Under the pieces are notes generated by a model, which searched no databases, was not told the DNA's origin, and saw only the letters and a program-made list of their open reading frames with translations. Source: Candidatus Aminicenantes bacterium (GTDB taxonomy: Bacteria > Acidobacteriota > Aminicenantia > Aminicenantales > UBA4085). From it: a stretch of 44,085 bases of DNA. This document shows, piece by piece, positions 4,352-36,376 of this stretch; the first letter of the stretch is position 1; each line of letters begins with the position of its first letter. The DNA lies in assembly GCA_026393855.1 (NCBI GenBank), contig JAPKZJ010000093.1:1-44085 (forward strand), written 5' to 3'. A program made the translations under genes and the position numbers.

Positions 4352-6385
4352 ATGACTTCAAGCCGCCGTCTGATCACGCTCTGCATTTTTGCCGCTCTGG
4401 CCCTCTCGATCGCGCCGAGGCCGGCCTCGGCGTCCCAGCCGCTGACCGTCTCCTCTCCCGACGGCCGCCTGACCGTCTCGCTGGCCCTAAAGGCCCTGCC
4501 CCAGCCTTATCTGCAGGGCGAGCGCGTCTACTACGCGGTCAGCTTTCAGGGCCGCCCGGTACTCGCCGATTCGCCGCTCGGGCTCGATTTCTACGGGGCC
4601 CGCCCCATGGAGACGGAATTCGAGGTGATCGCGACGGATCGGCAAGCGGCGGATTCAACTTGGGAGAACGAATTCGGCGCGCGGCGTAACGTTCGAGATC
4701 ATTACAATCAGCTGACCGTATCGCTGCGCGAAACCAAGGCGCCCGGGCGCCGCGTCGACCTGATCTTTCGCGTCTTCGACGAAGGCGTCGCCTTTCGGTA
4801 TTTCCTTCCCAAGCAACCGGCCCTCGATCGATTCGCCTTGTCGGCCGAGAACACCGGATTTCAATTCCTTCCCGGCGCAACCGCCTGGGCCTTGAATATG
4901 GGGCGCTTCAACACCCATAACGAAAGCGAGTACCTGCCCATCCGGCTGGATGAGATCAAGCCTTCCGAAGTCATCAACCTGCCTCTGCTCGTGCAAGCCC
5001 CCGGCGGGCCGTGGATCGCGCTCCTGGAAGCGGACTTGAACGATTACGCCAACATGTACGTGGGCGGCATCCCGGGGGCCGCCGGCGCCCTGATCAGCAA
5101 GCTTTGCCTTCCGCCGCGCAAGGAAAGCGTGGCCCGCAACATCGCCTGGACGCAGTATCACGCCATTGAACAGCCCGTCGTCGCCACGACGCCGAAATCG
5201 ACCCCCTGGCGCGTGCTGATGATCGCTCCGACGCCCGGCCGGCTGATCGAGACCAGCGACATCGTCCTGAACCTTAACCCGCCTTGCGCCATCCCCGACA
5301 CCTCCTGGATCAAGCCGGGACTGTCCGCCTGGGACTGGTGGACCGAAAGCTTCGCCAAGAACGTGCCCTTCAAACCCGGCATGAACACGGCGACGATGAA
5401 GCACTACATCGAGTTCGCCGGCGCCCACGGCTTTCCCTACATGCTGATCGACGGCGGTTGGCACTCGGAGAGCGTCTGCAAGCCCGTCCCCGAGATCGAC
5501 ATGCCCGCGCTCCTGGCACATGCCAAGCTCCATAACGTCCGGCTGGTGCTGTGGGTCGAGTGGGCCGCGCTCAACCGCGAACTCGACGCGGCCCTGGCCC
5601 TCTACGAGAAATGGGGGGTGGCCGGCATCAAGATTGACGGCCAGAACCGCGACGACCAGGAGATGGTCCGTTTCACGGCCAATTGGGTCCGGCGGGCAGC
5701 CGAGCATCATCTGCTGGTCGACCTGCACGGCGCGTACAAGGAAACCGGCCTCCGGCGGACGTATCCCAACCTGGTGGGGATCGAGGCCGTCATGGGCATG
5801 GAATACAATCTGTGGAGCGAGCGGGTCACTCCCGAGTATGACGTGACCATCCCCTTTACTCGGATGCTGGCCGGGCCGATGGATTTCACCCCCGGCGCGT
5901 TCCGCAACGCCGCCCGGGGCAAGTTCGTCGCTCGCGGGGCCGAGCCCATGTCCCAGGGGACGCGGGCCCATCAACTGGCCGCGTATGTCGTCTATGAAGC
6001 GCCGCTGGGAATGCTGGCGGACTACCCGGAAGCCTACGAAGGCCAGCCGGGGCTGGAGTTCATCGAAAAGGTGCCGACCGTCTGGGACGAGACGAAGGTT
6101 TTAAGCGGGTTCCCCGGGCAATCCATCGTCATGGCCCGGCGCAAGGGCGATCTTTGGTATCTGGGAGCTATGACCAATTGGGATGCGCGCGAGATCGCTG
6201 TCCCGCTGGCCTTTCTGGGTGCGGGCGCGTATGAAGCCCGCATCTTCGCCGACGGGCCGGACGCGGCCAGCGAAGGCACGAGCTTGAAAATTGAGATTAA
6301 AAGCGTCAAAGCGGGAGACAACTTCGGCGCGCATCTAGCGCCGGGCGGCGGACTGGCCGTCATCCTGACGCCGGCCAAGCGATAG
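4352..6385 (+). CDS. GH97 family alpha-glycosidase (SusB-like)
   Basis: 677 residues with a Sec signal peptide ending at PRPASASQ. The order is that of GH97: an N-terminal beta-supersandwich (~30-290), a TIM-barrel (~300-560) and a C-terminal beta domain. Family landmarks are LTVSSPDGRLTVSL, LPAWDWW-like SAWDWWTESF, YMLIDGGWH, GIKIDGQNRDDQ (D429) and GIEAVMGMEYN. An Asp at the barrel strand where retaining GH97 alpha-galactosidases carry their nucleophile (here D429) suggests the retaining branch over the inverting alpha-glucosidase branch, but this is a judgement from memory of the family. It probably acts in the periplasm on terminal alpha-galactose or alpha-glucose. Convergent with the GH78 gene, 15 bp between stops. 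Confidence 0.93.
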   Translation: MTSSRRLITLCIFAALALSIAPRPASASQPLTVSSPDGRLTVSLALKALPQPYLQGERVYYAVSFQGRPVLADSPLGLDFYGARPMETEFEVIATDRQAADSTWENEFGARRNVRDHYNQLTVSLRETKAPGRRVDLIFRVFDEGVAFRYFLPKQPALDRFALSAENTGFQFLPGATAWALNMGRFNTHNESEYLPIRLDEIKPSEVINLPLLVQAPGGPWIALLEADLNDYANMYVGGIPGAAGALISKLCLPPRKESVARNIAWTQYHAIEQPVVATTPKSTPWRVLMIAPTPGRLIETSDIVLNLNPPCAIPDTSWIKPGLSAWDWWTESFAKNVPFKPGMNTATMKHYIEFAGAHGFPYMLIDGGWHSESVCKPVPEIDMPALLAHAKLHNVRLVLWVEWAALNRELDAALALYEKWGVAGIKIDGQNRDDQEMVRFTANWVRRAAEHHLLVDLHGAYKETGLRRTYPNLVGIEAVMGMEYNLWSERVTPEYDVTIPFTRMLAGPMDFTPGAFRNAARGKFVARGAEPMSQGTRAHQLAAYVVYEAPLGMLADYPEAYEGQPGLEFIEKVPTVWDETKVLSGFPGQSIVMARRKGDLWYLGAMTNWDAREIAVPLAFLGAGAYEARIFADGPDAASEGTSLKIEIKSVKAGDNFGAHLAPGGGLAVILTPAKR

Positions 6386-6400: not shown

Positions 6401-9034
6401 TTAAGCGCGCTTCAGCCGGAGCTCGGTCGTGACACCCGCCGGCAGGCGATAGCGAACGCACCCTTCCGGGGTCGTTCCGCGGAGCGCCTCGAGGTGGACG
6501 GTTTCCTCGTGGGGCAGGACGATCTCTCCCCGGGCGTCCGGCGGCGTCGATATCGAGATCTCGCGGGCGCCGAGCTTGCCCAAAGCCTTGAACTCGACGG
6601 GGCCGCGGACGGTCCAGGCCGTGAGATCGAGATCCGCGAGATCGGCCAATTGCGGCCGGAGCTCGAAGCGGGCGAATCCGGGCTCGAGGGGCCGCAGGCC
6701 CAGAATGCTCATGTAGAGAACATAGAGCGGAGCCACGGCGCAGTGGCTCCACTGCTGGCCGGAATCGGGCACGGCCTTCCAATCCTCCTGCAGGGTGTTG
6801 TTCAGCCGGACCGAGTCCATGACCGCCCAGCGGCGGCGGAAATCATCCACGATTACGTCGGCCCGCCCGCCGGCGCCCAGGGCCCACAGCCGCCAGCCCG
6901 CGTTGGCCGGATAGGAGAATCCCATTTCCGGGGGGCATTCGGCCAGGGCCTTGAGGGCGGCCCGGGTCTGTCCGCCGGGGCATTGATCGAAGAGGACGGA
7001 CGTAGCCAGGGAACGGTCGCAGAGCCGGATGCCCCTCTCTTCGGCCAGCCAAGGCTGGTTGACGACGAAGAGGCCGAGATCCGCCCGCCAGAAGGCCTTG
7101 ACCGCCGCTTCCCGCAGTCCGCGGCCGAGCTTGACCGCCTCGTCCGCCCGGTTACTCTCGCCGCAGGCCCGGGCTAGGGGCGCCAGCGCGTGCTCCATGG
7201 CGGCGGCCGTGAATAGATTGAAGGCGCACTTTTTGTGTTTCTGTTTTTGATAGGCGACGTGGTCCATCCAGACCGAAGGGATGCCTAGGGACTCCACGGG
7301 CAACAGGCCGTCGGGGCCGCGCAGGCTTTCTAGATAGCGGGCGAACCGCAGGAGCCGCGGGTAGGCTTCGCGCACCGCCTCCAAGTCGCCGCTGTATAGA
7401 TAGTGGTGCCAAGCGTCGAAAGCAAACTCGACGCCGTGATCGAGGATCGGCCCCCACCCGGTCAGATCGAGCTGGCGCTCCATCAGGCGGGCCAGGCGGT
7501 CGTAGGCCGGCCAACAATCCAGGAAAAATCCGTCTTTGGTTAAGCCTTGGCTGAAGGTGGCCAGGAAGCGGGCCGGAAGCCGCGTTTCGCCGAAGGCCAG
7601 AAAGACGCCCTTCAGTTGATGGGCCCCGTCGCCGCTGTACTGCTGGCGCTCGCGGGCCATGCCGTCTACACAGGTCTCCTGGGCGCTGTTGCGGAGGGTG
7701 TTGATGTTGGCGTCCATCAGCCGCTGCAGGGCTGGCTCGCCGATCAGAATCCGGGGCTCATGGGGCCAGGGGAACTCCCGCCGCCGGACGCCGATGTCCT
7801 TGACGCGAACTGTCCCTTTGGCGCCATGGATGTGAAGCTGCAGCCAGCGCAGGCTCTCGAAATCGAACGTTTCGAAGGCGTTGACCCCTTCCGCGCAGAT
7901 GAATCGGGTCCAGGAATCGAAGTGGGAATTGATGAGGGCCGGGCCGCCCAACTGGTGAGCTTCATGGACGAGAAGCTCGACCACCGTGCCGGTGGGCGCC
8001 TCGATCGTGAAGCGGGGCCATCCGACAACCTGCTCCTCGAATTCGAAGGTCAGGACTTGGCCGCGGACGCCGTCAAGGACGGCAGCCCATTGGCCGGGCG
8101 CAGACTCCGTGACGTCGCCGCCCGGCTCGGCTTTAAATGCGTCCGGCACCCGGCATTCGAAGTATTCCTCTACCGGGCGCTTCCATTCCAACCGGTAGGT
8201 TTCGGCCAGCCCCTTAATAGGCACGAAGGATTCGCGCATCATGGGAATGGACCGAGGGCGAAGCTCCGCGCGCGCCGGGTCGGCGGCGATGTCCGTCTGG
8301 TATTCGTAGAAGTCGGTGCAGACGCTGGGTTTATTGGGCGATCCCGCCAGCGGCATGGCCGGCAGCCAGTCCGGACCCGGCTGGAATCCGGCTTCGGCCC
8401 AGCCGCGGGGATAGAGCCGGGCATCGAACTCCTCCTGCAGAGCGCGCAGATACCAGCGCTTGTAATGTCCGGGGCGCCAAGCCCGGCACAGATGGGCCTG
8501 CCAGGATGGATCCGAAACAATCGTTTCCATCCGGCCGTCGGCGGACTCGATCTCCAGCCGGAAAAGAAAGCCCGGCTTGCCGCACGGCCAGGTTCCGTCG
8601 CCCTGGCCGTAATAGAGAACCGTCGCGCCGAGGACGTTTTCCCCCGGCTTGAGGAGGGCGGTCAGGTCGAGCGGGTCGGCTTCCATCCAGCGTGGATCGG
8701 AAGGCGGGGGGCCCCATTGGACGCGTTCGCCGTTAACTTGCAGATGGTAGCGGCTGTCGGCGCAGATCCAGCCGGCGGCGCGCCGTGGGGCGGCGTCCAG
8801 GCGCAAACCGCGCCGGAACAAAACGAACGTGTTCTGCAGACAGCGTCCGCTCGGGTACCAGATCCAACGGGCCGGCTCGAGGTCCGGCAGCTTGAGCGCT
8901 GCCTCGGGAATAACGGGCGGGTCGGAGAATGCTCCCGGGAGCGGCCCGGTCGGGCCCGGTGTCGAGGGCGATCGCCAATGGGCGGCGGCGCCTCCGGCCA
9001 GTGCGGAATCACGAATGAATTGGCGTCGGTTCAT
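6401..9034 (-). CDS. Alpha-L-rhamnosidase, GH78
   Basis: 877 residues. A twin-arginine signal (MNRRQFIRDSALAGGAA) predicts Tat export. Beta domains with a galactose-binding-like fold (~50-230) and Bac_rhamnosid_N-type sandwich (~230-420) precede the (alpha/alpha)6 barrel (~425-780) and a C-terminal beta domain. The general-acid motif is CVDGMARERQQYSGDG with E462 in the position of the classic RDER Glu; the base is probably E750 in NNTLQEDW. It should release terminal alpha-L-rhamnose. ATG at 9034 is preceded by GAGGA, which overlaps the stop of the GH106-GH36 fusion gene (9 bp apart), so it is the second gene of that operon and is translationally coupled to it. Confidence 0.93.
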   Translation of the reverse strand: MNRRQFIRDSALAGGAAAHWRSPSTPGPTGPLPGAFSDPPVIPEAALKLPDLEPARWIWYPSGRCLQNTFVLFRRGLRLDAAPRRAAGWICADSRYHLQVNGERVQWGPPPSDPRWMEADPLDLTALLKPGENVLGATVLYYGQGDGTWPCGKPGFLFRLEIESADGRMETIVSDPSWQAHLCRAWRPGHYKRWYLRALQEEFDARLYPRGWAEAGFQPGPDWLPAMPLAGSPNKPSVCTDFYEYQTDIAADPARAELRPRSIPMMRESFVPIKGLAETYRLEWKRPVEEYFECRVPDAFKAEPGGDVTESAPGQWAAVLDGVRGQVLTFEFEEQVVGWPRFTIEAPTGTVVELLVHEAHQLGGPALINSHFDSWTRFICAEGVNAFETFDFESLRWLQLHIHGAKGTVRVKDIGVRRREFPWPHEPRILIGEPALQRLMDANINTLRNSAQETCVDGMARERQQYSGDGAHQLKGVFLAFGETRLPARFLATFSQGLTKDGFFLDCWPAYDRLARLMERQLDLTGWGPILDHGVEFAFDAWHHYLYSGDLEAVREAYPRLLRFARYLESLRGPDGLLPVESLGIPSVWMDHVAYQKQKHKKCAFNLFTAAAMEHALAPLARACGESNRADEAVKLGRGLREAAVKAFWRADLGLFVVNQPWLAEERGIRLCDRSLATSVLFDQCPGGQTRAALKALAECPPEMGFSYPANAGWRLWALGAGGRADVIVDDFRRRWAVMDSVRLNNTLQEDWKAVPDSGQQWSHCAVAPLYVLYMSILGLRPLEPGFARFELRPQLADLADLDLTAWTVRGPVEFKALGKLGAREISISTPPDARGEIVLPHEETVHLEALRGTTPEGCVRYRLPAGVTTELRLKRA

Positions 9035-9043
9035 GATTTTTCC

Positions 9044-12000
9044 TCAATGCGTGCTACGCCGGTACGACAGCCAGATGGCCCCCGGCTTGGACGGAATCCG
9101 GACGGGAACTCCCTCCTCCATCAGTTCAGCCCCGGTATGGCTCGCGGTCGTGCCGGCGTCGGGATCGGTCACTTCGTAGGCCGCCGCGCGATCCAATCCA
9201 TGCAGCTTGAAGCGCCGCTCGTCGTCCGGACAGTCTTTGCGCCGGAAGGCAGCGACGGTACCGCCGCCTTTCTCCGGGCTGTCGAACTGGAAGGCCATCC
9301 AGGCCGATTCCGCGTGAGTATAGGGGGTGAGCGGGTAATAATCGCCGAGCAGATAGTCCTGGATCGTGCGGAAGTTCGCGACTTCGCGGCGGATGCGATC
9401 GTAATCGTCGCCCGTCTTCCGCATGTCGTGGCCGATTCTCCAGGCCGGGCAGATGGTGCTGCGCAGGAGGTAGATGTCGTCCGTTCCCGCCCCGGAGCCG
9501 TACCAGGGAAGCCAAAATGAGAGCCCGTAGGTGTGGGCCTGGTGGGCGACGGCGCTGGCCGTGAAATCGCTGCGCAGGAGCGGTGCCGCCCGCCGCAGGG
9601 TCTCCAAATCGTTGCGCCGTCCTCCCGAGGCGCAGGTATCGATCCAGCGGTCCGGATCGCGTCGCAGCAGCTCGTCCCAGTAGGCCAGCAGGCCGGTGAC
9701 GTAGTGATTCTCGGTCAGGCCCTGCCGGTCCGGCGGATCGCTGGCCCGCCAGTAGGCCAGCGGGCTGATGTTGAAGTCCGTCCGCAGGACGTCGATGCCG
9801 CCGGACTTGAACATCGCGTCGAGGTAGTCGACGAGCCAGGCCCGGGCTGCGGGATCGCCCAGGTTCAGAATCCGGCTGTCGTCGGGGCCGAGCTTCAGCG
9901 GCGTTTTGGTCGCGACGGGGCGGGGGAGGAGCCACTCGGCGTGATGCGTCGCCAGCCACGAGCCCATGGCCACCCGCTCGGGCTCGAACCAGAGCACGAA
10001 CTTCATCCCGGCGGCGTGGGCCTTGTCGGCGACCTCGCGCATGCCTCGCGGGAAGCGGACCGGGTCGGGCGTCCAGGTGCCGACGCCGTCCCACCAATCC
10101 TTGTTGGGATACCAGCCCGCGTCCAGGATCCAGGCGTCTAGCCGGATGCGCTCCCGGACGAAGCCGTCGATCATGGCCGTCTCCTCCGCGGCCAGCGGTT
10201 TCAAGTTGCCGTAGCAGGCGTCGAAGCGGGCCGGGAGGGGCTTGCCGCCGGGGCGGGGCAGGTTGTGGGCGATCATCCAGCGCCGCCAGATGTTCTGCGA
10301 TCGGAGCCGATCCCCGCCGCTCCAGAACTGCAGGACGATGAGCGGGGTGCGCGCCTCCTCGCCCGGTTCGAGAGAGAAACGGGTCTGCTCCTGCCCGGCC
10401 CGAAACCGCAGGCCGTTCGTCTGATCGCGCTGAAACAGGGACGTCCATTGCCCCGGCCAGCCGACCGCCGCGATGACCCCGCCGCCCGGCCACTCGATGT
10501 TGAAATAGGACATGTCGCTGTTGGTGGGGCGACCGCCGGCGGCGCCGATGCGCTTTTCCTCGCCCGGCCCGAGCACGGTTTGGAGCGGCTCGAAATCATT
10601 GGCCTGGTTGGGACTGCCGACGGCATGATGCAGAAGATACTCTCTGCCGGAGACGTTGAGGAAAGCGAAATCGGCGGCCTGCAGATCTTCGATGAGCGGG
10701 CTTTTGGCCGAGCCGCCGTTGCGAAGATAGACCGTCCATTCCACGGTCGGGAAGTCCGCATATTCCACGCCGACACAGCGAACCTCCAGCCCCGTTTTCG
10801 GATCGGTATAGCGGAGCGTCCGCTCCAGCCGCTCGCGGTCGATCGTCCGCGAGGATCGTTCCAACTTCCAGGACGGCAATAATTTTGCTGAACGCTTGCC
10901 GCCGAAGACGAAGGAAAACGGCGGCGCCGGCTCGGGCACCGGGCCGGAAGAGGGCGTCGTTTGGGCTTGCTTTTCGCCCCAGAATCGGGCGGCCGCCCAA
11001 GCATGCGCCGCAATCTTTTCGACGTCATTGGGACGGGTCTGCTCCAGGGCGGGGAAGGAATCGCTCGGGCCCGCCTCCCCTAGGATGGAGACCGGGCCGA
11101 GCAGGCCCGATTCCAGGAGCGAGGTCGTCTTGGTGATCATGTCGAAGCGGAAGGCGTCGTGGGTGACGGTGACGCGCTTGTCTTTGGGCAGGCTGAGGTC
11201 GCCGATGACCCGGTTGGCCCAGAGGTTGACGACGTCGATCTCCAGGGCGTTGCCGGTCGGGCGGACCGCGTCGGTGACGTCGACGCGCCAGGGGGGCGTC
11301 CATAGGACGCCCAGCGAACGGCCGTTCAAGCGGATATCGGCCACGTCCTTGACCGCGCCGAGATCGAGATAGAGGCGCTTCTTGGCCGCCGTCGCCGCCG
11401 CAGGCTCCAGATCGAACGTCTTGCGATAAGTCGCCTTGCCGGAGTAGTGCTTGATGCCCTCCTCCGGGCGCCGCGTCCAGCTGACGAGCTCCGGGAATTC
11501 GGCCGACTCCGGTCCGCCCCAGCGCGGGTCGAATCCGACTTTCCATGCGCCTGCGATTTCCTGCGCCGGGACGAGCGCGGGGAAATTGCCCGACGCTTTT
11601 CCCGATTTCCCTGCCGCGACCGGCTTGCGGAAGACGACGAACAGCGACTGCATGGGAGCGAATTCAAGAGGGACGACGGTCCGGCCGCCGTCCGGACGGA
11701 AGGCCGCGGCGTCCCGGATGCTTCCGCTGACCGGATCCCAAATTTCCGGCTGCTTGCCTTCCACGCGGAAGGCGCATTCCCGGGACATCGGGCGCCCGCT
11801 TCGGCTGGAGACGAAGTAGATATCGGCGTCTTTGGACGTGCGATGGATGAAATCAAGATTAGATGCCCCGGACTGTGTCCGGGGAGAGATGTCGAAATCC
11901 GGCTCCACTCCGTCCTTCTCCAATATCTCGCGCGGCGTCCTGCCCCAAATCACCCGGCCGAGGCCGTATTTGTGTTCGGTAACGACCTTCCCGTCGCAGT

Positions 12001-13996
12001 CGCCCCAGACCTCGTCGGCGATGGCCCGGATTTCCTCATCGGCGCGCGGGTAGTCCTTGAGGCCGGAGGCCTTCTCCGGCTTGGACCCGACGACGGTTGC
12101 CCCGGCCCGGACGAGATCGCGGATCTTTCGCGCCGCTTCGATCGGCATCGAGCGGGAGGGAATGGGCGAGACGGGCAGAGACAGCGCATCGCCGATCGTT
12201 TTGGAGATTTCGGGGGACGGCGAGGTGCAGTTCCGCAGGACGAGAAGCCGGTAGCTCAATCCGTCGGGAAGGACGATGCGGCCGTTGGCGACCGACATCC
12301 GGGTCAGAAGGGCTTCGGTGTTGAGGTAATCGTAGTCATAACCCGGGCCGAGGTCCGGATCCTCGGCCTTGGGCGGGGCGATGAGGGGAGGCCGGTCGCC
12401 CAGGTAATAGGCGACGTCGCCGGCGAACACGCCCTGTTGGAGTATGAATTGGCAGCGCGCGAGATAAGTGAAGAAGGCCGGGGACTGCTCCCACCAGGTG
12501 CTGTTGGGGTTCCAATGCTGGCCGGCGCAAAACTCGTAGCCGGGCTTGCCGTCCGAGGGCGGCTGGCAGGTGGCCTGGTGGAGCATGACGGAGTTGATCC
12601 CCTCGCCGAAGGCGGTGTCGATGTAAGGCTTGAGGTCGGCCGGCGACAGCGACCAGTGGGTCCGGTCGCGCTCCTGCTGGGTGAACGACTCGGCCATGGC
12701 CTGGGGCTTACCGTAAATGTGAGCGGCGGAAGCGGTCTGCTTGAGGTTGAGCCGCATATAGGGATCCGCGTTGTAGCCGCCGGGATAATCGAAATGGCCG
12801 TTGACCCAGAACTCGCCGGTCGGCAGGTCACAGCGACCGCCGTTTTTCAGCGAGTCCATGGGCGGGAGGTTGCCCGGGCCGGCCGCCTCGCTGCCCATGC
12901 GGACACCACGTTGATGGCACAGCTCGGCGAAATGGCCGTAGAAGTTCTCGGCCAGGCAGTCTTCGATGGTCCGGTCGAAATCCTCCTTGAACCGGGCCGT
13001 GATGTCGGCGCTGCCGACGATGCGCCCGGCCAGGGCCGGGAGATACGGCTTCAGATCGTAGCCGCGAAACCGGAGAAATTGAGCCGGAAAATCCTGCGTC
13101 CAGGTCAGCTTGCCGCACTCCCAGCTGTCCGACCAGAGATAGTCCAGCTTGCCGCCCGCCTTGGCCGCCTCGTCCAGGACAACTTGGCCGAGATGCTCGA
13201 AATGATCGTCGAGCGAAGCGGGATTGAGATAGTCGATCTGATAACCGGCTCCCTCGGCGAATGTGTCGCCTTTGGGATAAGGATCCCAACGGCTGCCGGT
13301 CAGCGTATAGCCCGTCCGCAGGATGGTCCACGTCCCGGCCGGGACGTCCCATTCGAATCGGCCGCCCGCGCCCATGCGAGCGGTCACGTCGACGATCGAA
13401 CCAGGATCTATCGCCTGGGAAGCGCTGTCAGGAAAGGCCTGGACCCAGACGTCCACATAATAGCCGTCAACGGTCGGCGGCGCTGGCAAAACGCTTTGGA
13501 ATTTCTTCGGGCCGCGGACCTTGATCTCGGACTGGACGACCTTCTTCATGGCGTTGTCCGGTGTCACCCAGGGCCCGATCATCACCCAGCCTCCGGCCAG
13601 GTTGAAGCCCATCTCCAGCTTCAGGCGCTTGGCTTCCTTGACGGCGTGGCGAAAAAGCTCGCGCCACTCGGGCCCGAGGAATTTGACGCCCGGCAATGGT
13701 TCTTTCCCCGCGTAGCCGCCGGTGCAAATCAGGTTGACGCCCTGGAAACCTTTGGCTTTGAACTCCTCGAGGTCGCGGGTGATGCCGGCTTTGTCGACCC
13801 GGTTGAACAGCCACCACCAATAGACGCGGGGCTTGGCCGAATCGGGAGGGTTCAGAAAACCCTTTTCGAGCCCGGGCGCGGCGGGCTTGCAGGCCGCCAA
13901 GCAGGAGATCAAAGCGAGGGCAGCGAGAGCCGCCGCCCACGGCCGCCGGATGCGGATGAGATGGCGAAGGCGGCGTTGGTTTGTCGAAGGGGCCAT
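9044..13996 (-). CDS. GH106-GH36 fusion: alpha-L-rhamnosidase / alpha-galactosidase lipoprotein
   Basis: 1650 residues from ATG 13996, chosen because AGGAGAG lies 7 bp upstream and a promoter lies just beyond. The reading frame stays open upstream to 15583 but there it only shadows the GH51 gene. A type II signal with lipobox LAAC makes it a lipoprotein. Residues ~40-975 are GH106 (NPPDSAKPRVYWWW, FNLAGGWVMIGPWVTPDNAM, a C-terminal sandwich with LYLDLGAVKDVADIRLNG). A ~50-residue Pro-rich linker follows. Residues ~1025-1650 are GH36: PFSFVFGGKRSA, DAWILDAGWYPNKDWW, WFEPERVA, nucleophile D1407 in LRTDFN, ICASGG-like DTCASGGRRND and acid/base D1477 in RSDFTAS. Both modules look complete, so two activities on one substrate are likely. 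GH78 lies directly downstream. Confidence 0.92.
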   Translation of the reverse strand: MAPSTNQRRLRHLIRIRRPWAAALAALALISCLAACKPAAPGLEKGFLNPPDSAKPRVYWWWLFNRVDKAGITRDLEEFKAKGFQGVNLICTGGYAGKEPLPGVKFLGPEWRELFRHAVKEAKRLKLEMGFNLAGGWVMIGPWVTPDNAMKKVVQSEIKVRGPKKFQSVLPAPPTVDGYYVDVWVQAFPDSASQAIDPGSIVDVTARMGAGGRFEWDVPAGTWTILRTGYTLTGSRWDPYPKGDTFAEGAGYQIDYLNPASLDDHFEHLGQVVLDEAAKAGGKLDYLWSDSWECGKLTWTQDFPAQFLRFRGYDLKPYLPALAGRIVGSADITARFKEDFDRTIEDCLAENFYGHFAELCHQRGVRMGSEAAGPGNLPPMDSLKNGGRCDLPTGEFWVNGHFDYPGGYNADPYMRLNLKQTASAAHIYGKPQAMAESFTQQERDRTHWSLSPADLKPYIDTAFGEGINSVMLHQATCQPPSDGKPGYEFCAGQHWNPNSTWWEQSPAFFTYLARCQFILQQGVFAGDVAYYLGDRPPLIAPPKAEDPDLGPGYDYDYLNTEALLTRMSVANGRIVLPDGLSYRLLVLRNCTSPSPEISKTIGDALSLPVSPIPSRSMPIEAARKIRDLVRAGATVVGSKPEKASGLKDYPRADEEIRAIADEVWGDCDGKVVTEHKYGLGRVIWGRTPREILEKDGVEPDFDISPRTQSGASNLDFIHRTSKDADIYFVSSRSGRPMSRECAFRVEGKQPEIWDPVSGSIRDAAAFRPDGGRTVVPLEFAPMQSLFVVFRKPVAAGKSGKASGNFPALVPAQEIAGAWKVGFDPRWGGPESAEFPELVSWTRRPEEGIKHYSGKATYRKTFDLEPAAATAAKKRLYLDLGAVKDVADIRLNGRSLGVLWTPPWRVDVTDAVRPTGNALEIDVVNLWANRVIGDLSLPKDKRVTVTHDAFRFDMITKTTSLLESGLLGPVSILGEAGPSDSFPALEQTRPNDVEKIAAHAWAAARFWGEKQAQTTPSSGPVPEPAPPFSFVFGGKRSAKLLPSWKLERSSRTIDRERLERTLRYTDPKTGLEVRCVGVEYADFPTVEWTVYLRNGGSAKSPLIEDLQAADFAFLNVSGREYLLHHAVGSPNQANDFEPLQTVLGPGEEKRIGAAGGRPTNSDMSYFNIEWPGGGVIAAVGWPGQWTSLFQRDQTNGLRFRAGQEQTRFSLEPGEEARTPLIVLQFWSGGDRLRSQNIWRRWMIAHNLPRPGGKPLPARFDACYGNLKPLAAEETAMIDGFVRERIRLDAWILDAGWYPNKDWWDGVGTWTPDPVRFPRGMREVADKAHAAGMKFVLWFEPERVAMGSWLATHHAEWLLPRPVATKTPLKLGPDDSRILNLGDPAARAWLVDYLDAMFKSGGIDVLRTDFNISPLAYWRASDPPDRQGLTENHYVTGLLAYWDELLRRDPDRWIDTCASGGRRNDLETLRRAAPLLRSDFTASAVAHQAHTYGLSFWLPWYGSGAGTDDIYLLRSTICPAWRIGHDMRKTGDDYDRIRREVANFRTIQDYLLGDYYPLTPYTHAESAWMAFQFDSPEKGGGTVAAFRRKDCPDDERRFKLHGLDRAAAYEVTDPDAGTTASHTGAELMEEGVPVRIPSKPGAIWLSYRRSTH

Positions 13997-14029
13997 GGCG
14001 GACTCTCCTGTGCGGGCCGGATTGACCGG

Positions 14030-14167: not shown

Positions 14168-16048
14168 ATGAAACGCTCGATGCCCCGTTGGCCGTTGGTT
14201 GTTCTTCCCCTGGCCCTGATGATGACCGTTGCGTCCGGGCCTGCCGGCGCCGGTGAGGACGCGGTCAGGGTCAAGGTCTATGCCGATCCGCTCCACGGCG
14301 GCCGTATCAGCCCGATGCTCTATGGCGGCTTCGTCGAGCTGCTCGACGATCTCGTGCCCGGGATGTGGGCCGAGATGCTCGGCGACCGCGGCTTCGAAGG
14401 CCTGCTCCCGACATCCAATTGGGATTACTTCCGGGGCGAGCCCAACCTCTGCGACCGCGATTGGGACAAGAGCCCCGACTGGACTTTTGACGCCGACCGG
14501 CCGTTCAACGACAAGCAGTCCTGCCGGCTGACCGTTCCCCCAAGCCGCGCCGCCCTGCTGTCGCAGGGCCAGATGGCCGTCCGCAAGGGCCGGGCGTATT
14601 TGTTCGCCGGATATATCCGCAGCGATGCGCCTCCCGCCGGGATACGCATTGCGTTCAAGGCCCTGCTTCCGGACGAAACCTGGACCGTGCTCGCGTCCTC
14701 CATTCTCCCTCTGGCCGAAAAGGGATGGCGCAGGGTCACCGCCCGTCTGATTTCGGCCGGCACGACCGACCGGGCGGTTTTCGAAATCGAAGCCCGCGGC
14801 GCCGGGCAAGTCTGGCTGGACCAGCTCTCGCTCATGCCCGAGGACAACATCGACGGCTGGCGGCGGGATGTCGTCGAGGCCATGAAGGAGATGGCGCCGC
14901 CCATCGTCCGCTGGGGCGGCTCGACGATCGATCCGGGGCCGTACCGCTGGAGCGACGCCGTCGGTGACCGCGACCACCGGGCGTCCTTCATTAACCGGGT
15001 CTGGGGCCGCCGCGACACGAACGACGTCGGAGTCGAGGAATTCGTGCGCCTTTGCCGGGCTGCCGGAACGGAGCCCCTCGTCTGCGTCAGCCTCGGCGAC
15101 GGAGTGGCCAGCGCCCGCCGCATGGTTGAATACCTTAACGGTCCGGCCGATTCCGAGGGAGGCCGGCAGCGGGCGGCGAACGGACGCCCCGAGCCGTATG
15201 GGGTCAAGTACTGGCAGGTCGGAAACGAGATCGATGCCCCCGGATATATCGGCAGCCTCGTGGAATTCGCCCGCGCCGTCCGGGCCGCCGACCCGAACGC
15301 CGTCGTCCTGTCGTCTTTCCCGACTAAGGAGATCATCGAGACCGCGGGCCCGGATCTCCAGATCGTCGCCCCCCACTACTACCAGGCCGACCTGGACGGC
15401 GTGGACGCCGACCTCAGCAAGATCGAAGGCTGGATCAGGGAATCCGCCGGCCGCGATCGGATCCGGATCGGGGTTACGGAGTGGAACATCGATGCCGGGA
15501 ACTGGGGCCTTGGCCGGGGCAAGCTGAACAGCCTCGGCTGCGCCATCTTCGAAGCCCGGTTTCTCAACGTCCTCCACCGCCACAGCGAGTCCGTAGCCCT
15601 GGCCTGCCGGTCAAACATGACCAATAGCTTCTCCGGCGGTACCATCCAGACGAACGCGGCCGGCCTCTACCGGACGCCGGGCTTCCTGGTCATGTCGCTC
15701 TTCCGGGCCCATACTCGGCCGATCCCGTTGCGACTGGCGGCCGACCTGCCGGCCGCCCTGGACGTCACGGCCTGCGCCTCGGAGGACAAGGCCGGCGTCA
15801 CGATCTTCGCCGTGAATCCCAAGAAAGAGCCCGTTCGTCTCGTCCTCGACTTGACGGATCTCGGGCCTGGCTTCGGCATCCGGGGAGGGGAGGTCGTCAA
15901 GGACGCCCAAGACAGGCGCCAAATCGACATCATCAACGGCTTCGCCGACCCCCGCAGGGTAGTCAAGGTGAAGCTCGAACGGGATTCCGGAAACGTCGTC
16001 ACGATCCCGGCCCTCTCGATCGCCGCGATCGATTGCGGCAAAAATTAA
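14168..16048 (+). CDS. Alpha-L-arabinofuranosidase, GH51 (with carbohydrate-binding-like insert)
   Basis: 626 residues, Sec signal ending near GPAGAG, AAGGAGA 5 bp before the ATG. The start of the barrel module (ISPMLYGGFVELLDDL) is followed by a ~150-residue beta domain (PDWTFDADRPFNDKQSCRL to GQVWLDQLSLMP) resembling a CBM4-like module. The GH51 barrel then resumes: PPIVRWGGS, YGVKYWQVGNEID with acid/base E354, HYYQADLDG and IGVTEWNID with nucleophile E438. A C-terminal beta sandwich ends at ALSIAAIDCG. It should remove terminal alpha-L-arabinofuranose outside the cytoplasm. It is monocistronic, transcribed divergently from the GH106-GH36 operon, and its stop lies 5 bp before the inverted-repeat element. 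Confidence 0.92.
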   Translation: MKRSMPRWPLVVLPLALMMTVASGPAGAGEDAVRVKVYADPLHGGRISPMLYGGFVELLDDLVPGMWAEMLGDRGFEGLLPTSNWDYFRGEPNLCDRDWDKSPDWTFDADRPFNDKQSCRLTVPPSRAALLSQGQMAVRKGRAYLFAGYIRSDAPPAGIRIAFKALLPDETWTVLASSILPLAEKGWRRVTARLISAGTTDRAVFEIEARGAGQVWLDQLSLMPEDNIDGWRRDVVEAMKEMAPPIVRWGGSTIDPGPYRWSDAVGDRDHRASFINRVWGRRDTNDVGVEEFVRLCRAAGTEPLVCVSLGDGVASARRMVEYLNGPADSEGGRQRAANGRPEPYGVKYWQVGNEIDAPGYIGSLVEFARAVRAADPNAVVLSSFPTKEIIETAGPDLQIVAPHYYQADLDGVDADLSKIEGWIRESAGRDRIRIGVTEWNIDAGNWGLGRGKLNSLGCAIFEARFLNVLHRHSESVALACRSNMTNSFSGGTIQTNAAGLYRTPGFLVMSLFRAHTRPIPLRLAADLPAALDVTACASEDKAGVTIFAVNPKKEPVRLVLDLTDLGPGFGIRGGEVVKDAQDRRQIDIINGFADPRRVVKVKLERDSGNVVTIPALSIAAIDCGKN

Positions 16049-16358: not shown

Positions 16359-17486
16359 CTATTTCATCTTCGGGTCTTGGCCGGGCCCGCCGGTAGCCTT
16401 GAATTTCGGGATGCGCTCCTCTGCCGGCGGAAGAGCCGGGAATTTCCCGTGCGGGTCTTTCTGGTACCAATAAGCCACCGAATAGAAGTTGTCGGAGCGC
16501 AGGTTGGCGTGGCCGTCCTCGATCGTGACCTTGATCGATCGGCGGAAGCGCACCGGCGCCTCCAGGTGGAAACGATAGTGTGAAAACCTGGACCCGGGCT
16601 CCCACTGGTGGAATTCCGTCAGGCCGATGAGGGGAAACGAGTAGAGCGACGAGAATCCCCAAGCCCCGTTGAAATAATCCTCGCCGCCGGTGCCGTGGAT
16701 GCGCGGCTCGGCCTCGTCGTCGATCCAGATCATCTCGTCGCCCTCGTTCCAGCCTCCCCATTGGTTTTGGAACACGGAAAGCGTCAGGCCGACGAATTGG
16801 CCGTCGCCGCGCGTCTCGAGAAAGACATAGTTGCCCGCCCCCGACGGATTGAGCCAGCGGGGGTCGCGACGCGCTTCGCTGAAATCGTTGCCGTAAAAGT
16901 TGCCCTGGTACCAGCCCCGGTTCGGCGCCGCTTGGCGGTACTGGGCGTGGAAATAGGCCGTCTCGGGCGGAAGCGCGGGCAGCTTGACCCAATCGATGTT
17001 CCAGTAGAAATCCGTGATCTCCTGATGTCCTTCGTTGCTGACCGTGATGCGGCCGCGGCGGGCGAACGGCATCGGGAAGTAGGCGTTGAGAGCCTTGTCC
17101 GGGGCCACGGTCAGGAGAGCCGAATGGAAGACGGTGTACGTGCCCAATCCCAGGCCGAAGAAATCCCCAATGGGCGCTTCGACGCTGGGCTCCGCCTCGC
17201 CGTCCCAATACATCCGCAGTACGACCTTCTTCAGGTGATAGGCCTCTCCCGTGGCCATCGTGATCCAAAGGTGCCGGATCTCGCCCGGCCCGGCCTCGTC
17301 GTAAAGCTCCAGGGTTTGGCCGGCTTTCAAAGACCGGTAATCTCCGTTAGAGCCCGTTCGGTCGAAGCTCGAGGCGCGCCGCGATTCGTAGTCGCCGAGC
17401 TTCGTCAGCGAGCCGACTGGGAATTGGGCCGTGAGGCCCTTGGCCAAGAATAGGACGGCGATAAAAAGAGGCCGCGCTTTGAGCAT
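16359..17486 (-). CDS. GH172 (DUF2961) family glycoside hydrolase
   Basis: 375 residues from ATG 17486, preferred over the upstream ATG at 17534 because AGGAGA lies 5 bp before it and a clean signal peptide follows (FIAVLFLAKGLTAQ). DUF2961 is now GH172, whose characterised members cleave difructose dianhydride I/alpha-D-fructofuranosides or the D-arabinan of mycobacteria. Landmarks are GPGEIRHLWITMA, PIGDFFGLGLG, YFPMPFARRGRITVSNEG, EGDEMIW and HGTGGEDYFNGAW. E248 and E269 are 21 residues apart, the same spacing I recall for the catalytic pair of the Bifidobacterium enzyme (E270/E291). Substrate is likely a furanoside, but which one is unknown. It is divergent from the GH2 gene. Confidence 0.88.
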   Translation of the reverse strand: MLKARPLFIAVLFLAKGLTAQFPVGSLTKLGDYESRRASSFDRTGSNGDYRSLKAGQTLELYDEAGPGEIRHLWITMATGEAYHLKKVVLRMYWDGEAEPSVEAPIGDFFGLGLGTYTVFHSALLTVAPDKALNAYFPMPFARRGRITVSNEGHQEITDFYWNIDWVKLPALPPETAYFHAQYRQAAPNRGWYQGNFYGNDFSEARRDPRWLNPSGAGNYVFLETRGDGQFVGLTLSVFQNQWGGWNEGDEMIWIDDEAEPRIHGTGGEDYFNGAWGFSSLYSFPLIGLTEFHQWEPGSRFSHYRFHLEAPVRFRRSIKVTIEDGHANLRSDNFYSVAYWYQKDPHGKFPALPPAEERIPKFKATGGPGQDPKMK

Positions 17487-17504
17487 GGTTTTCTCCTGCG
17501 GCGA

Positions 17505-17534
17505 ATGGTATGTCCGAGACGGCCTCTGAATCAA
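17505..17534 (-). promoter_or_regulatory. Candidate promoter of the GH172 gene
   Basis: Minus strand: TTGATT (17534-17529), 18-bp spacer, TACCAT (17510-17505). The leader would be only ~12 nt, just enough to hold AGGAGA. It is weaker than the facing GH2 promoter. Confidence 0.4.
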
Positions 17535-17583: not shown

Positions 17584-20500
17584 ATGAGAGAAGAAAAAGC
17601 CCCGCTTGCCGCGTTCGGTTTCTTGGCCGTACTCGGGCTATTCTCGCTTGCCCAAGACCGCGCGGTCTTGGAGCGGGCAGCGAAGGAAGTCGATATTGCG
17701 CTTTCGGGCGATTCCCTGGGCCATATCGTTGGAACGGTCTCGAAGGACCTCGGCCGCACCGGGCTTGCGGGCGAGACCGTGACTCTGTCCGGGAACGGCT
17801 GGACCCGCACCGCCGTGACGGGCGAGAACGGCTTCTTCGCGGTCGAGACGCCGCTCAATGCCAGGGGCCGCCTTACGGCCGCGGTCCGGGATCATCGAGC
17901 TTCGATTGATGTCTCCGACATCCCGCTCCGCCTCACCGCTCGTCCCAAATCCACCCGCCTTTCCCTGGAAGGGCCATGGCGGATTCTCCTTGATCCGCCC
18001 GCCGATTGGCGGACCGCGACGGGATGGCGGCCCCTCAACGTGCCCTCGAATTGGGAAATGAAGGGCCTCCGGGCCAAGAGCGAAACGGCGGTGATGCGCA
18101 AGGACTTCACGGTTCCCGCGGACTGGCGCGGCAAGCGGATCAAGCTTCGGGCCGACGGCATCTACAGCCGGTGCGAAGCCTGGCTCAACGGCGTCCGGGT
18201 CGGAAGCCACGACGGCGGCGCGACCCCCGTGGAGCTGGATTTGACCGAGGCCGCCCGGTTCGGCGGCGATAACACCCTCGACTTGTTTATCAAGGGCCGT
18301 TCGCCCGCCGCGCTCATCGACAACATGAGCGTTTACGCGTACTTCGAGCTGGCCGGGATCTGGCGGCCGATCGAGGTGTTCGCCGTCGAGCCGGCCCACG
18401 TCGCGCGCGTCCATTGGGCCGTGGATTATGACGGCGCTTATCGGACCGCGGCACTCACGATCAACGCTACGGTGGCCAACGCCCAGGGTCGTGCGGTCGG
18501 GGACGGGAAGCTGAGCCTGCGCTTGTCGGACCCGGCCGGCCGAGTCGTCAAGACCGAAACGCGGGCCGTTTCCCTTTCGCCTTGGGAGGAGAAGACGGTT
18601 CCGATCGTTTTATCGGTCGAGCATCCGGAGCCGTGGACTGCCGAACGCCCCCGCCTTTATGCCCTGGAAGTTGCCTGGAACGGCGCCGCGGTCGAATCGC
18701 CCGTCGGGTTCCGGGAGACGGAAGTCGCGGGCAAGCGCTTGACCCTCAACGGCAAGCCGGTCAAGCTCTTCGGCGTCTGCCTGCACAGCGCCGATCCGAC
18801 CGCCGGGCGGGCCATATCATCGGCACTTGTCGAGAAGGACCTCGGCCTGATCAAGGGCTGCAACCTCAACGCCATCCGGACCTCGCATTACCCGCCGCAC
18901 CCGCATACCCCCGAAGTCGCCGACCGGATCGGGCTCTACATCGAAGACGAGGGCCCGGCCTGCTGGGCCGACTCGGACGATCTTCGTGTCGTCCCGCTTT
19001 ACCTCGGGATCTACGCCTCCTTTGTCGAGCGCGACCGCAACCATCCCTCCGTGGTCTATTGGTCGATGTGCAACGAAAGCCGCTACACCCGGATCTTCCA
19101 GATGACCAGGGATTACATCAAAAAGATCGATCCGACGCGGCCCTCCAGCGGCACCTACGCGCCTGCCGAAGACAAGGCGGATATGGCCGTCTACCATCAT
19201 CCGACGAACCTGCATGAATTCATCCGCAAGATGGCCGATATCCCCAAGCCGGTCTTCATGGACGAGTGCCAGACCGTGTTCCACGGCTGGGGCGACCTGG
19301 CGACGAGCCTCGAGATCGACCCCGGGATGCACGACTACTGGGTGACGAACGTCCCCGAGGTCATCCGGGCCTCGTTCGAGACCGAGAACCAGGTCGGGAC
19401 GATGATCTGGGCCTGGGCCGACGACGCCTTTCTCGTCCCCGGCCGCGGCATCGAGAACGGCCGCCGCGACGCCCCGCTCATCCGCTACGCGGAGTCTCTC
19501 TATAGCGGACCGGGGCACGGATACGTCGGCGACACCGTCTGGGGGATGGTGGACGCCTGGCGGCGGCCGCGGCCCGAATGGGAGCTGTCGCGGCAGGCCT
19601 ATTCGCCCGTCCAGATTCCGACGGAGCCTCTCCCCCCCGGCCCCGTGCGGGTGCCCGTGTTCAATCAAAACGTCTTCGAAAACCTCTCCCTCTATGAATG
19701 CCGTTGGGCGGTGGCCGGAAAACAGGGGACGGTCCGGGCGGACGTGCCGCCGCAGTCCCGGGGGACGATCGCCCTTCCGGTCGAGGCCGGCCCGAATGAC
19801 ACGCTGGAGCTGCGGTTCTTCGATGAAGATCGGCTCTTGAACAGCTTTCGCCTGCCGTTCAGGCCGCGCCCGGTCGAAGCCTGGACGCTCGGGCGGCCGG
19901 CCGACATCGCCGAGGAAAAAGACCGCTACCTCTCGGGCGCGTCCGTCGTCTACCTGCGCGGCGACGCTTGTGAGCTGGCCTTCGAGCGCAAGAGCGGCGA
20001 ACTGATGTGGGGCTTGGCCGCGGATACGCAGGTGCTGCTCAAAGGTCCCCGGCTCCACGTGCTGAAGAGCGAGGCGCCCGCGGGCGATGATCCGTCCGGG
20101 TGGAAGTTCACCGGCGAGACTCACGGCGCCGGCTCGATCCGCTGGAGCGGCCGCTTCGGCGACGATTGGATCGGCGGATACGATGTCCATATGGATCGGG
20201 ACGGAAACGCCGAGTTCGGGTACGCCTTCACTTATAGCGGGCCGGACCTCTGGGTGCGCGAGCTTGGCCTGGAGTTCGATCTGCCGCTCTCCTTCGCCAC
20301 GCTGGCCTGGGAGCGGCGGGCCGAATACACCGTCTATCCCGACGATTATATCGGCCGTCCGTCCGGCACGGCGTCGGCCCATCCGGCGGCCGCCCAGACG
20401 GTTCCCCCCGGAGAAAGACCCTTCGCGCTCGACGATCACGCCTGGGGCTCGAACGACTTCCGAAGCTCCAAGCGGGGGATCTATTGGGCCTCGCTCGCCG

Positions 20501-20715
20501 GCCCGGGCGGGGCCGTGAAAGTGGTCTCGGACGGGACGCAGACCGTGCGCTGTTCGCTTACGCCGCATGAAGCGGCGCTCAAAGTCCTGGATTATTACGG
20601 CGGCTCGGGAGGGCCCAAGGAGTGGTCCGTGCTCGGGTTTCAATATGGCGCGGGCCGCCTGATCAAGACAGGGGAGACGGTCAAAGGCGCGGTCCGGATG
20701 AAATTGAAAAGCTGA
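17584..20715 (+). CDS. GH2 family beta-glycosidase (beta-galactosidase-like)
   Basis: 1043 residues. A signal peptide (FGFLAVLGLFSLAQ) follows directly on the first Met, so this start is firm although no Shine-Dalgarno exists and the -10 box ends six bases upstream. An N-terminal carboxypeptidase-regulatory-like beta domain (~45-115) precedes the GH2 sugar-binding (~120-265), sandwich (~270-375) and TIM-barrel (~380-680) domains. The acid/base is E498 in YWSMCNESRY and the nucleophile E561 in VFMDECQTVF. The rest is a large C-terminal beta region. GH2 includes beta-galactosidases, beta-glucuronidases and arabinofuranosidases; beta-galactosidase is the default guess given the surrounding galactosidases. 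Its divergent neighbour is GH172. Confidence 0.9.
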   Translation: MREEKAPLAAFGFLAVLGLFSLAQDRAVLERAAKEVDIALSGDSLGHIVGTVSKDLGRTGLAGETVTLSGNGWTRTAVTGENGFFAVETPLNARGRLTAAVRDHRASIDVSDIPLRLTARPKSTRLSLEGPWRILLDPPADWRTATGWRPLNVPSNWEMKGLRAKSETAVMRKDFTVPADWRGKRIKLRADGIYSRCEAWLNGVRVGSHDGGATPVELDLTEAARFGGDNTLDLFIKGRSPAALIDNMSVYAYFELAGIWRPIEVFAVEPAHVARVHWAVDYDGAYRTAALTINATVANAQGRAVGDGKLSLRLSDPAGRVVKTETRAVSLSPWEEKTVPIVLSVEHPEPWTAERPRLYALEVAWNGAAVESPVGFRETEVAGKRLTLNGKPVKLFGVCLHSADPTAGRAISSALVEKDLGLIKGCNLNAIRTSHYPPHPHTPEVADRIGLYIEDEGPACWADSDDLRVVPLYLGIYASFVERDRNHPSVVYWSMCNESRYTRIFQMTRDYIKKIDPTRPSSGTYAPAEDKADMAVYHHPTNLHEFIRKMADIPKPVFMDECQTVFHGWGDLATSLEIDPGMHDYWVTNVPEVIRASFETENQVGTMIWAWADDAFLVPGRGIENGRRDAPLIRYAESLYSGPGHGYVGDTVWGMVDAWRRPRPEWELSRQAYSPVQIPTEPLPPGPVRVPVFNQNVFENLSLYECRWAVAGKQGTVRADVPPQSRGTIALPVEAGPNDTLELRFFDEDRLLNSFRLPFRPRPVEAWTLGRPADIAEEKDRYLSGASVVYLRGDACELAFERKSGELMWGLAADTQVLLKGPRLHVLKSEAPAGDDPSGWKFTGETHGAGSIRWSGRFGDDWIGGYDVHMDRDGNAEFGYAFTYSGPDLWVRELGLEFDLPLSFATLAWERRAEYTVYPDDYIGRPSGTASAHPAAAQTVPPGERPFALDDHAWGSNDFRSSKRGIYWASLAGPGGAVKVVSDGTQTVRCSLTPHEAALKVLDYYGGSGGPKEWSVLGFQYGAGRLIKTGETVKGAVRMKLKS

Positions 20716-23754: not shown

Positions 23755-24237
23755 ATGAACATCACGTTCCGGACAACGCCCGAGAAGGAAGACGTCGAAC
23801 GGATCCGGCAGATCGTCGTCTCCACCAAGTTCTTTTACGATCACGAGGTGGAGGTTGCCGTCGAGCTGATCGAGGAGCGCCTGAATGAAGGGGAATCGAC
23901 CGGCTATCATTTCGTGTTTGCCGAAGTCGACGGCGTGACCGCCGCCTACTCCTGTTACGGGCCGATCCCGATGACCAAATCGAGCTTCGACCTGTACTGG
24001 ATCGTCACCCATGCCGATTACCGCGGCCAGGGCATCGGGAGGAGGCTGCTGGAGGAGACCTATCGTCATGCCCGGGCCCTGGGCTGCACCCTCATCATCG
24101 CCGAGACGTCCGGCCTCGAACACTACGCCCCGACCCGGGGTTTCTATGACAAAAACGATTTCACCCTGGAAGCCAGGCTTAGGGACTTTTACGACGAGGG
24201 CGACGACAAGTTCATCTATGTGAAAAGACTGGTATGA
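23755..24237 (+). CDS. GNAT family N-acetyltransferase
   Basis: 160 residues from ATG 23755. That start is preferred over ATG 23749 because AAAAGGA sits 6 bp before it, against none for the first. A single Gcn5-type acetyltransferase domain shows the acetyl-CoA pyrophosphate-binding loop [16 protein letters not shown] at ~88-103, with beta4 (DLYWIVT) before it and LIIAETSG after. The acceptor (amino acid, polyamine, protein or antibiotic) cannot be told. It lies 25 bp after the M28 gene and its TGA overlaps the phosphoketolase ATG (ATGA, 24234-24237), so the two are translationally coupled. A link between acetyl-phosphate production and acetylation is possible but not shown. Confidence 0.9.
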
Positions 24238-36000: not shown

Positions 36001-36376
36001 GCGAGCCCGCGATGGCCATCTCCAGGCCCAGCTGATCGGCCAGAGTTGCCGCGAACTTAAACGCGTCCTTCCAATCCGGCGTCATGTAAACGAGGCGTTT
36101 GGCGACGACCTGGGGTGTGGCGAGCGCCGCGTCGAAGTTCTGGAAGCCGCCGATGCCGACGCGCTTCATCCATTCCAGGTCGGCTTTGATCCCGTCCTTG
36201 GTAATGTTGCCGTTCATCCAATGCCACCAGACGCGCGGCTTGGCGCTGTCCGGAGGGTTCTTGAAGCCCGGTGCGAGGGCGGCGCCGGGGTCCTGGGCTC
36301 CCGTGGCCCATGCGCCCAGAAGCGCTATGAGGCAGACGGCCCATACGATCCGGATTGTATTGTTTCTTGTTCTCAT
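33047..36376 (-). CDS. GH106 alpha-L-rhamnosidase
   Basis: 1109 residues with a Sec signal (AVCLIALLGAWATGAQ), AGGAG 9 bp before the ATG. The GH106 hallmarks are all present: GFKNPPDSAKPRVWWHWMNG, IGGFQNFDAA, LGLEMAIAGSPGWSETGGPW and TPAQAMKKLVWSE. An inserted beta-sandwich region (~205-345) has a Gly/Ala/Pro-rich loop (PPAGGGGAPAAATG). The catalytic barrel runs on through LQYIITDSWEAGVQNW, GMGRYTESHEGGRAF and GAWSWSPETLKPTADTELA. A C-terminal galactose-binding-like sandwich has LWLDLGNVKNLAEVSINGRP. GH106 enzymes are inverting, calcium-dependent exo-rhamnosidases. It is a paralogue of the GH106 half of the fusion protein (shared NPPDSAKPRV and the C-terminal sandwich) but has no GH36 module. 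First gene of a four-gene run. Confidence 0.93.
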   Translation of the reverse strand: MRTRNNTIRIVWAVCLIALLGAWATGAQDPGAALAPGFKNPPDSAKPRVWWHWMNGNITKDGIKADLEWMKRVGIGGFQNFDAALATPQVVAKRLVYMTPDWKDAFKFAATLADQLGLEMAIAGSPGWSETGGPWVTPAQAMKKLVWSETRLEGGKPFSGLLPKPPSTTGPFQNMPREGSGGGKSTPNPEYYGDSAVIAYRLPDGDIPMAELQPKVTSSGGSFSLASLIDGDLAKMIILPAAPAEQKAWIQFEFEKPLAVRGLSVAAEFQRRGSEGDQVVESSDDGLQFRLIQPIPDIGTIAFPPVTAKFFRLTFKTPAPPAGGGGAPAAATGTKIAEIVLYTGARVNRFEDKAGFSAASDLYALATLPVPVQDAVRKADVVDLTSKMRPNGRLDWTPPAGRWMVLRLGYSLTGARNSPASPEATGLEVDKLNRGHVEAYLNHYLGLYKETLGPLMGKRGLQYIITDSWEAGVQNWTDDMIAEFAKRRGYDPRPWLPVLTGRVVESAESSDRFLWDFRKTIGDLTTEYHYDQISASLHKMGMGRYTESHEGGRAFIGDGMEVKKNAEIPMSALWTPESSGDEPPGYGVDIRESASVAHIYGQNLVAAESLTAYGGNRGAWSWSPETLKPTADTELAMGLNRFVLHTSVHQPVSDKIPGLSLGPFGQWFTRHETWAELAKPWTGYLARSSYLLQQGRFVADILYFYGEDSNITALFGAKPPDIPAGYDFDFVNADAILHRLAAEGGRITTPSGMSYAVLALDANSRHMSLPVLRKIRDLVGAGAVVVGSKPVDAPSLNDDPAAFRAIADELWESGDGEHAFGKGRIFAGRTLAQVLAAGGIEPDFQYAKPRTDTNLRFVHRKLADGEIFWVNNRNKRAETLETSFRVQGKEAELWHPDTGEMEPASYLIANGRTIVPLRLDPYDAVFVVFLKPAAASARALPGASEMSLGTLEGPWSVDFQAERGAPARVMLEGLKSWSESADPGIKYFSGSATYTRTIQAPADWMKRGARLWLDLGNVKNLAEVSINGRPLGVLWKAPFRVDVTEAIKPGPNELKIKVTNLWVNRLIGDTQPGTTKKYTYTTQPFYRADSPLLPSGLLGPVRILRSAAE

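Follow-up and report, generated by a model that had tools for sequence, protein, structure and literature searches.

The window, by which we mean the whole stretch of 44,085 nucleotides that was analysed, carries a gene in which a GH106 and a GH36 glycoside hydrolase are joined in one chain, and further genes of carbohydrate-active enzymes lie around it. The features are given below by position and strand, with the basis of each in brackets.

9044–13996, minus strand: fusion gene, 1650-aa lipoprotein with GH106, linker and GH36 (open reading frame, Pfam, NCBIfam, full-length ortholog)
14003–14009, minus strand: Shine-Dalgarno-like AGGAGAG, six bases 5' of the fusion ATG (sequence)
13889–13996, minus strand: putative lipoprotein signal peptide, residues 1–36, lipobox LAAC at 33–36 (sequence reading)
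11069–13882, minus strand: GH106 module, residues 39–976, including a closing jelly-roll at about 814–934 (profiles, model)
13118–13120, minus strand: GH106 general acid E293, equivalent to E461 of BT0986 (alignment)
12689–12691, minus strand: GH106 E436, equivalent to E593 of BT0986, putative base (alignment, invariant in the rows)
10928–11068, minus strand: interdomain linker, residues 977–1023 (47 residues), in frame (sequence, model)
9047–10927, minus strand: GH36 module, residues 1024–1650 (profiles, alignment, model)
9776–9778, minus strand: GH36 nucleophile D1407, in LRTDFN (alignment to solved alpha-galactosidases)
9566–9568, minus strand: GH36 acid/base D1477, in LLRSDFT (alignment to solved alpha-galactosidases)
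4352–6385, plus strand: GH97, closest NCBIfam model a retaining alpha-galactosidase, below cut-off (profiles)
6401–9034, minus strand: GH78-like alpha-L-rhamnosidase, directly 3' of the fusion gene on the same strand (Pfam, synteny with fen_333)
14168–16048, plus strand: GH51-like arabinofuranosidase, divergent from the fusion gene (profiles)
16359–17534, minus strand: DUF2961, GH172-like (profile)
17584–20715, plus strand: GH2 of LacZ type (profiles)
33047–36376, minus strand: a second GH106, of the long form (profiles)
36619–38229, plus strand: GH27 in divergent orientation to the second GH106; its pocket motif is DEG, as in a beta-L-arabinopyranosidase (profiles, alignment)

The reading frame of the fusion gene runs from an ATG at 13996 to a stop at 9044–9046, 1650 codons with no internal stop. 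An upstream start (the frame is open to 15583) was rejected, since the ortholog described below starts at the equivalent ATG and the added codons would be antisense to the gene at 14168–16048 and have a different codon-position GC pattern. Pfam finds Glyco_hydro_106 (E=1.3e-177), then Melibiase (1.5e-24) and Glyco_hydro_36C (9.3e-7); in the GH36 half PF02065 scores 87 bits and PF16874 29.6 bits, both above the cut-off. PF17132 covers the GH106 barrel and the NCBIfam rhamnosidase jelly-roll NF045579 matches residues 814–934, the closing sandwich of the family, so that this half is already closed ahead of the linker. The frame, the lipobox and the profile matches agree with a preliminary description of the locus, which had seen a single 1650-residue lipoprotein with a full GH106 and a full GH36 and had noted that the GH106 half retains its closing sandwich. 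The protein would be located in the cell as an anchored lipoprotein.

It is very likely that the GH106 half is an alpha-L-rhamnosidase. We take E593 of BT0986 to be the catalytic base of that enzyme. In BT0986, a solved GH106, the general acid is E461 and the calcium ligands are D458, S459, E538 and E561 (PMC6828813); these ligands align with D290, S291, E370 and E395 of the fusion, and the catalytic and calcium residues (these four with E293 and E436) are invariant across 29 aligned GH106 rows. The AlphaFold model of this half has a pLDDT of 87 and a pTM of 0.90, and its best match in the PDB is 6q2f (TM 0.84), with 5mqm/5mwk next and a large gap after them. The NCBIfam model AlphaRhamBT4145 also matches, far below its equivalog cut-off.

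The GH36 half was modelled mostly at pLDDT >90, and the N-terminal super-sandwich, barrel and C-terminal sheet of the GH36 fold are found in the model. Its best 22 matches in the PDB are GH36 alpha-galactosidases, with E down to 2.6e-38. D1407 and D1477, which the preliminary description had placed at exactly these positions, are invariant across 27 aligned GH36 sequences. Judged from sequence and models, both halves look catalytically competent.

The motifs DDGW and KWD of the solved alpha-galactosidases are absent from the GH36 half, which has LDAGW and LRTDFN instead, and DAGW replaces DDGW also in 24 of the 26 other aligned GH36 rows. The second Asp of DDGW is thus missing in this clade, and Arg stands for the Lys of KWD (R-x-D); almost all of the sequences L103, L105–L113, L127–L130 and L146–L165 have DAGW for DDGW and R-x-DFN for KWDMN. 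No characterised or solved member of the DAGW clade was found. Because of DAGW and the Arg for Lys, solved relatives are no guide to the sugar specificity, while GH36 membership is unaffected. The earlier naming as a GH36 alpha-galactosidase therefore stands for the family, on profiles, catalytic Asp residues and fold, but the activity name alpha-galactosidase is insecure, with beta-L-arabinopyranosidase as a reasonable alternative. The half would be a retaining enzyme for alpha-galactose-configured ends.

That the fusion is real and its GH36 half a beta-L-arabinopyranosidase, or of some other specificity than alpha-galactosidase, is a substantial possibility, falling somewhat short of an even chance. 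The DAGW pocket, here and in its relatives, speaks for it, as does the only GH36-type NCBIfam match, which is to the model of the beta-L-arabinopyranosidase BAD_1528 and scores far under the cut-off. The same window also holds the GH27, whose pocket PDEG aligns with DEG of Streptomyces avermitilis SaArap27A (3a21), as opposed to DDC of the rice alpha-galactosidase 1uas, and which is probably a beta-L-arabinopyranosidase, judging by this motif. The GH27 beta-L-arabinopyranosidases are marked by replacement of this pocket Asp (PMC5853685), but the residues known at this place in GH27 (Glu, Ile, Tyr) are larger than the Ala here, and the GH27 and GH36 positions are only presumed to be equivalent. 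Whichever sugar is released, the analysis now highlights a clade of GH36 enzymes that is frequent in Armatimonadota, Planctomycetota and Verrucomicrobiota and has a pocket unlike that of the solved GH36 alpha-galactosidases.

The same fusion is present in Candidatus Aminicenantes fen_333, a MAG of a second species of the genus, in one frame and with 80% protein identity. This ortholog is 1650 aa long from its own ATG and lies on an independently assembled contig with 79% DNA identity; it crosses the junction in frame without a stop, the linker being where the preliminary description had said that a stop or frameshift would count against a fusion. The divergence between the two genes has a third-position excess across both halves and the linker. 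The dN/dS values (NG86) are about 0.13 for GH106 (0.106/0.798), about 0.17 for GH36 (0.147/0.876) and about 0.33 for the linker (0.450/1.377), the last a rough value from 47 codons only. Both halves and the linker are under purifying selection. The linker is the fastest-evolving region besides the signal peptide, which argues that no specific geometry is kept between the GH106 and GH36 halves. The fusion gene neighbours the same GH78 gene in both species, with about 4 kb between them in fen_333. This stretch (L107, 620–4840, about 4.2 kb), absent from the window, holds a 574-aa ORF without a Pfam match.

In the AlphaFold model the confidence of the linker is low to middling, with a predicted helix at about 991–1006. 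This helix, AAHAWAAARFWGE, looks like the mature N-terminus of GH36 relatives that are secreted in Planctomycetota (AERWAAAKFSG, SRRWIAAKFEG), a likeness to secreted standalone GH36 enzymes that had been pointed out before. The Planctomycetota proteins have an NPCBM binding module between this helix and GH36; in the fusion protein the helix comes straight after GH106 and NPCBM is absent. The fused partner may thus replace a targeting role, and it is conceivable that one half alone is catalytically important and the other mainly a targeting or binding module. We find this improbable, as the catalytic residues are intact in both halves and purifying selection is similar on both. An assembly or frameshift artefact merging two adjacent genes for independent lipoproteins, for which one could point to the draft state of the genome (144 contigs) and the leader-like helix that opens the GH36 part, is ruled out for practical purposes by the second species, since junction and length recur on an independently assembled contig, the linker keeps the frame and diverges with a bias to third positions, and the sequence at the GH36 boundary has no signal peptide. 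The equal-length ortholog, the synonymous-biased divergence and the leader-like helix instead bear out the earlier view of a true gene fusion with no missed stop.

The GH106–GH36 pairing was found in only two species of one genus in a whole-protein search of about 1,450 genomes of five phyla. The survey covered the phylum of the window and phyla centred on Planctomycetota, Bacteroidia, Verrucomicrobia and Armatimonadota genomes; in the broad searches, scoring was limited to the two or three top candidates of each genome, among which a full-length fusion should still come out ahead. One more genome of the genus, 95% complete, does not have the fusion. A literature search, with most subscription journals outside its coverage, found no published GH106–GH36 protein. 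For the genomes surveyed and the papers searched, rarity and literature agree with the first impression that this is not a described architecture. A 'Rosetta stone', separate GH106 and GH36 genes side by side, was sought up to 6 kb from the GH106 loci that came out of a scan of 84,980 species genomes by short exact peptide patterns, which is not exhaustive, and in longer stretches surrounding the closest Armatimonadota GH36 genes; there was none in either. The long ORFs in G1117, G1290, G325, G1454, G1378 and G003 turned out to have other domain combinations.

Trees were built quickly from a biased sample and carry SH-aLRT support only. In the GH106 tree the fused copies are sister at 100% to Bacteroidia and two Armatimonadota-type sequences and lie far from the remaining Aminicenantes GH106, and in the GH36 tree they fall within an Armatimonadota/Planctomycetota/Verrucomicrobiota clade, split from Aminicenantes paralogues at 99%. 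For both halves the nearest kin lie outside the genome's own paralogues and differ between the halves, which suggests a fusion specific to this lineage and made from two genes that were probably acquired. Two acquired genes joined once is the simplest account. The fusion would have arisen once, in one Aminicenantes genus, from a Bacteroidia-like GH106 gene and a PVC/Armatimonadota-like GH36 gene; we infer the direction of transfer. The protein seems to represent known parts rearranged, rarely and locally, and not a new kind of system.

The compact Bacteroidia GH106 (L012–L026, L039) share clade and length with the fused GH106 at 59–66% identity, and both are without the insert of about 200 aa of BT0986 and RHA-P. 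The Bacteroidia enzymes differ in being stand-alone, with no GH36 in the flanks read. In L012, L016, L018, L020, L021, L022 and L028 the compact GH106 is often beside a second GH106, about 31–33% identical, and some of these loci also hold a fucosidase or a BT_1020-like propeller gene.

Multicatalytic CAZymes are ordinary; what appears to be new is the GH106–GH36 pairing. OtCE15C of Opitutus terrae likewise joins GH106 to another catalytic domain in a single chain, but there the partner is a glucuronoyl esterase and not GH36. This CE15-GH106 fusion is already published (PMC10807430). Two Verrucomicrobiota genes (L163, 2300–7036, and L164, 2504–7159, both plus strand) encode GH106 and then a CE15-like domain in one chain, as in OtCE15C; their GH106 belongs to a different clade from the fused one. 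On the GH36 side, AgaSK of Ruminococcus gnavus, a GH36 alpha-galactosidase-sucrose kinase (PMC7688924), also has GH36 sharing a chain with a second catalytic domain, but its partner is a kinase and its GH36 is canonical, distant from the fused one. The Planctomycetota NPCBM-GH36 (L103/L106) and NPCBM-GH36-GH2 (L105) proteins are closer, being multimodular members of the fused GH36's clade, about 47–53% identical, with a mature N-terminal helix similar to the linker helix; they differ in that the N-terminal partner is a binding module and that the second enzyme, in L105, is a C-terminal GH2. L105 (1356–6794, minus strand; 1813 aa) is thus a two-enzyme fusion with the same GH36 clade. Another long ORF, of 1905 aa (L162, 1540–7254, minus strand), has its GH36 at the C-terminus and also contains three carboxypeptidase-regulatory-like repeats. 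BlArafE of Bifidobacterium longum (GH43_22-GH43_34; PMC8939339) combines two exo-glycosidase domains in one surface protein, cooperative on arabinogalactan protein side chains, and the same is proposed for the fusion; the GH families differ, and the activity is experimental in BlArafE, whereas the fusion is known from sequence and models.

We propose a lipoprotein-anchored exo-glycosidase with two active sites in one chain. Its GH106 half, at the N-terminus, would take off terminal alpha-L-rhamnose in an inverting, calcium-assisted reaction with E293 as acid and E436 as base, and the C-terminal GH36 half would take off an alpha-galactose-configured end, retaining, with D1407 as nucleophile and D1477 as acid/base, releasing alpha-D-galactose or beta-L-arabinopyranose. 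The short linker would tether the halves so that different non-reducing ends of one branched plant side chain are trimmed together, and the adjacent GH78, GH51, GH2, GH97 and GH27 genes may complete the breakdown of the side chain. As a whole, a tethered two-enzyme lipoprotein of single origin that trims plant side chains is the explanation we consider likely.

The best guess at a substrate, resting on the gene neighbourhood, is type II arabinogalactan or pectic side chains, because GH97, GH78, GH51, GH172-like, GH2, GH106 and GH27 genes are gathered at the locus. The terminal galactose of gum arabic AGP carries both alpha-Rha-(1,4)-GlcA and either alpha-Gal-(1,3)-Ara or beta-Arap-(1,3)-Ara (PMC8939339), a double end of the kind that the preliminary description had proposed as substrate. 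It is plausible that neighbouring Rha and Gal/Arap ends occur on one substrate, and tethering may be of benefit, in a pairing seen in two species only. The most far-reaching version, an undescribed architecture built in one genus from two laterally acquired genes, with halves that attack neighbouring ends of a single side chain, arabinogalactan or pectic, and, through the DAGW pocket, a GH36 specificity unlike that of any characterised GH36 clade, we advance tentatively, the case for it being a little weaker than the case against. A natural fusion is evidence of joint use of two activities and points to a substrate with both ends; it also offers a single-protein tool for trimming arabinogalactan or pectin.

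GH106 and a clan GH-D enzyme are paired twice in the window, once fused and once as neighbours. Amid the CAZyme genes there is also a complete phosphoketolase gene (XFP, 24234–26678, plus strand), possibly for pentose use.
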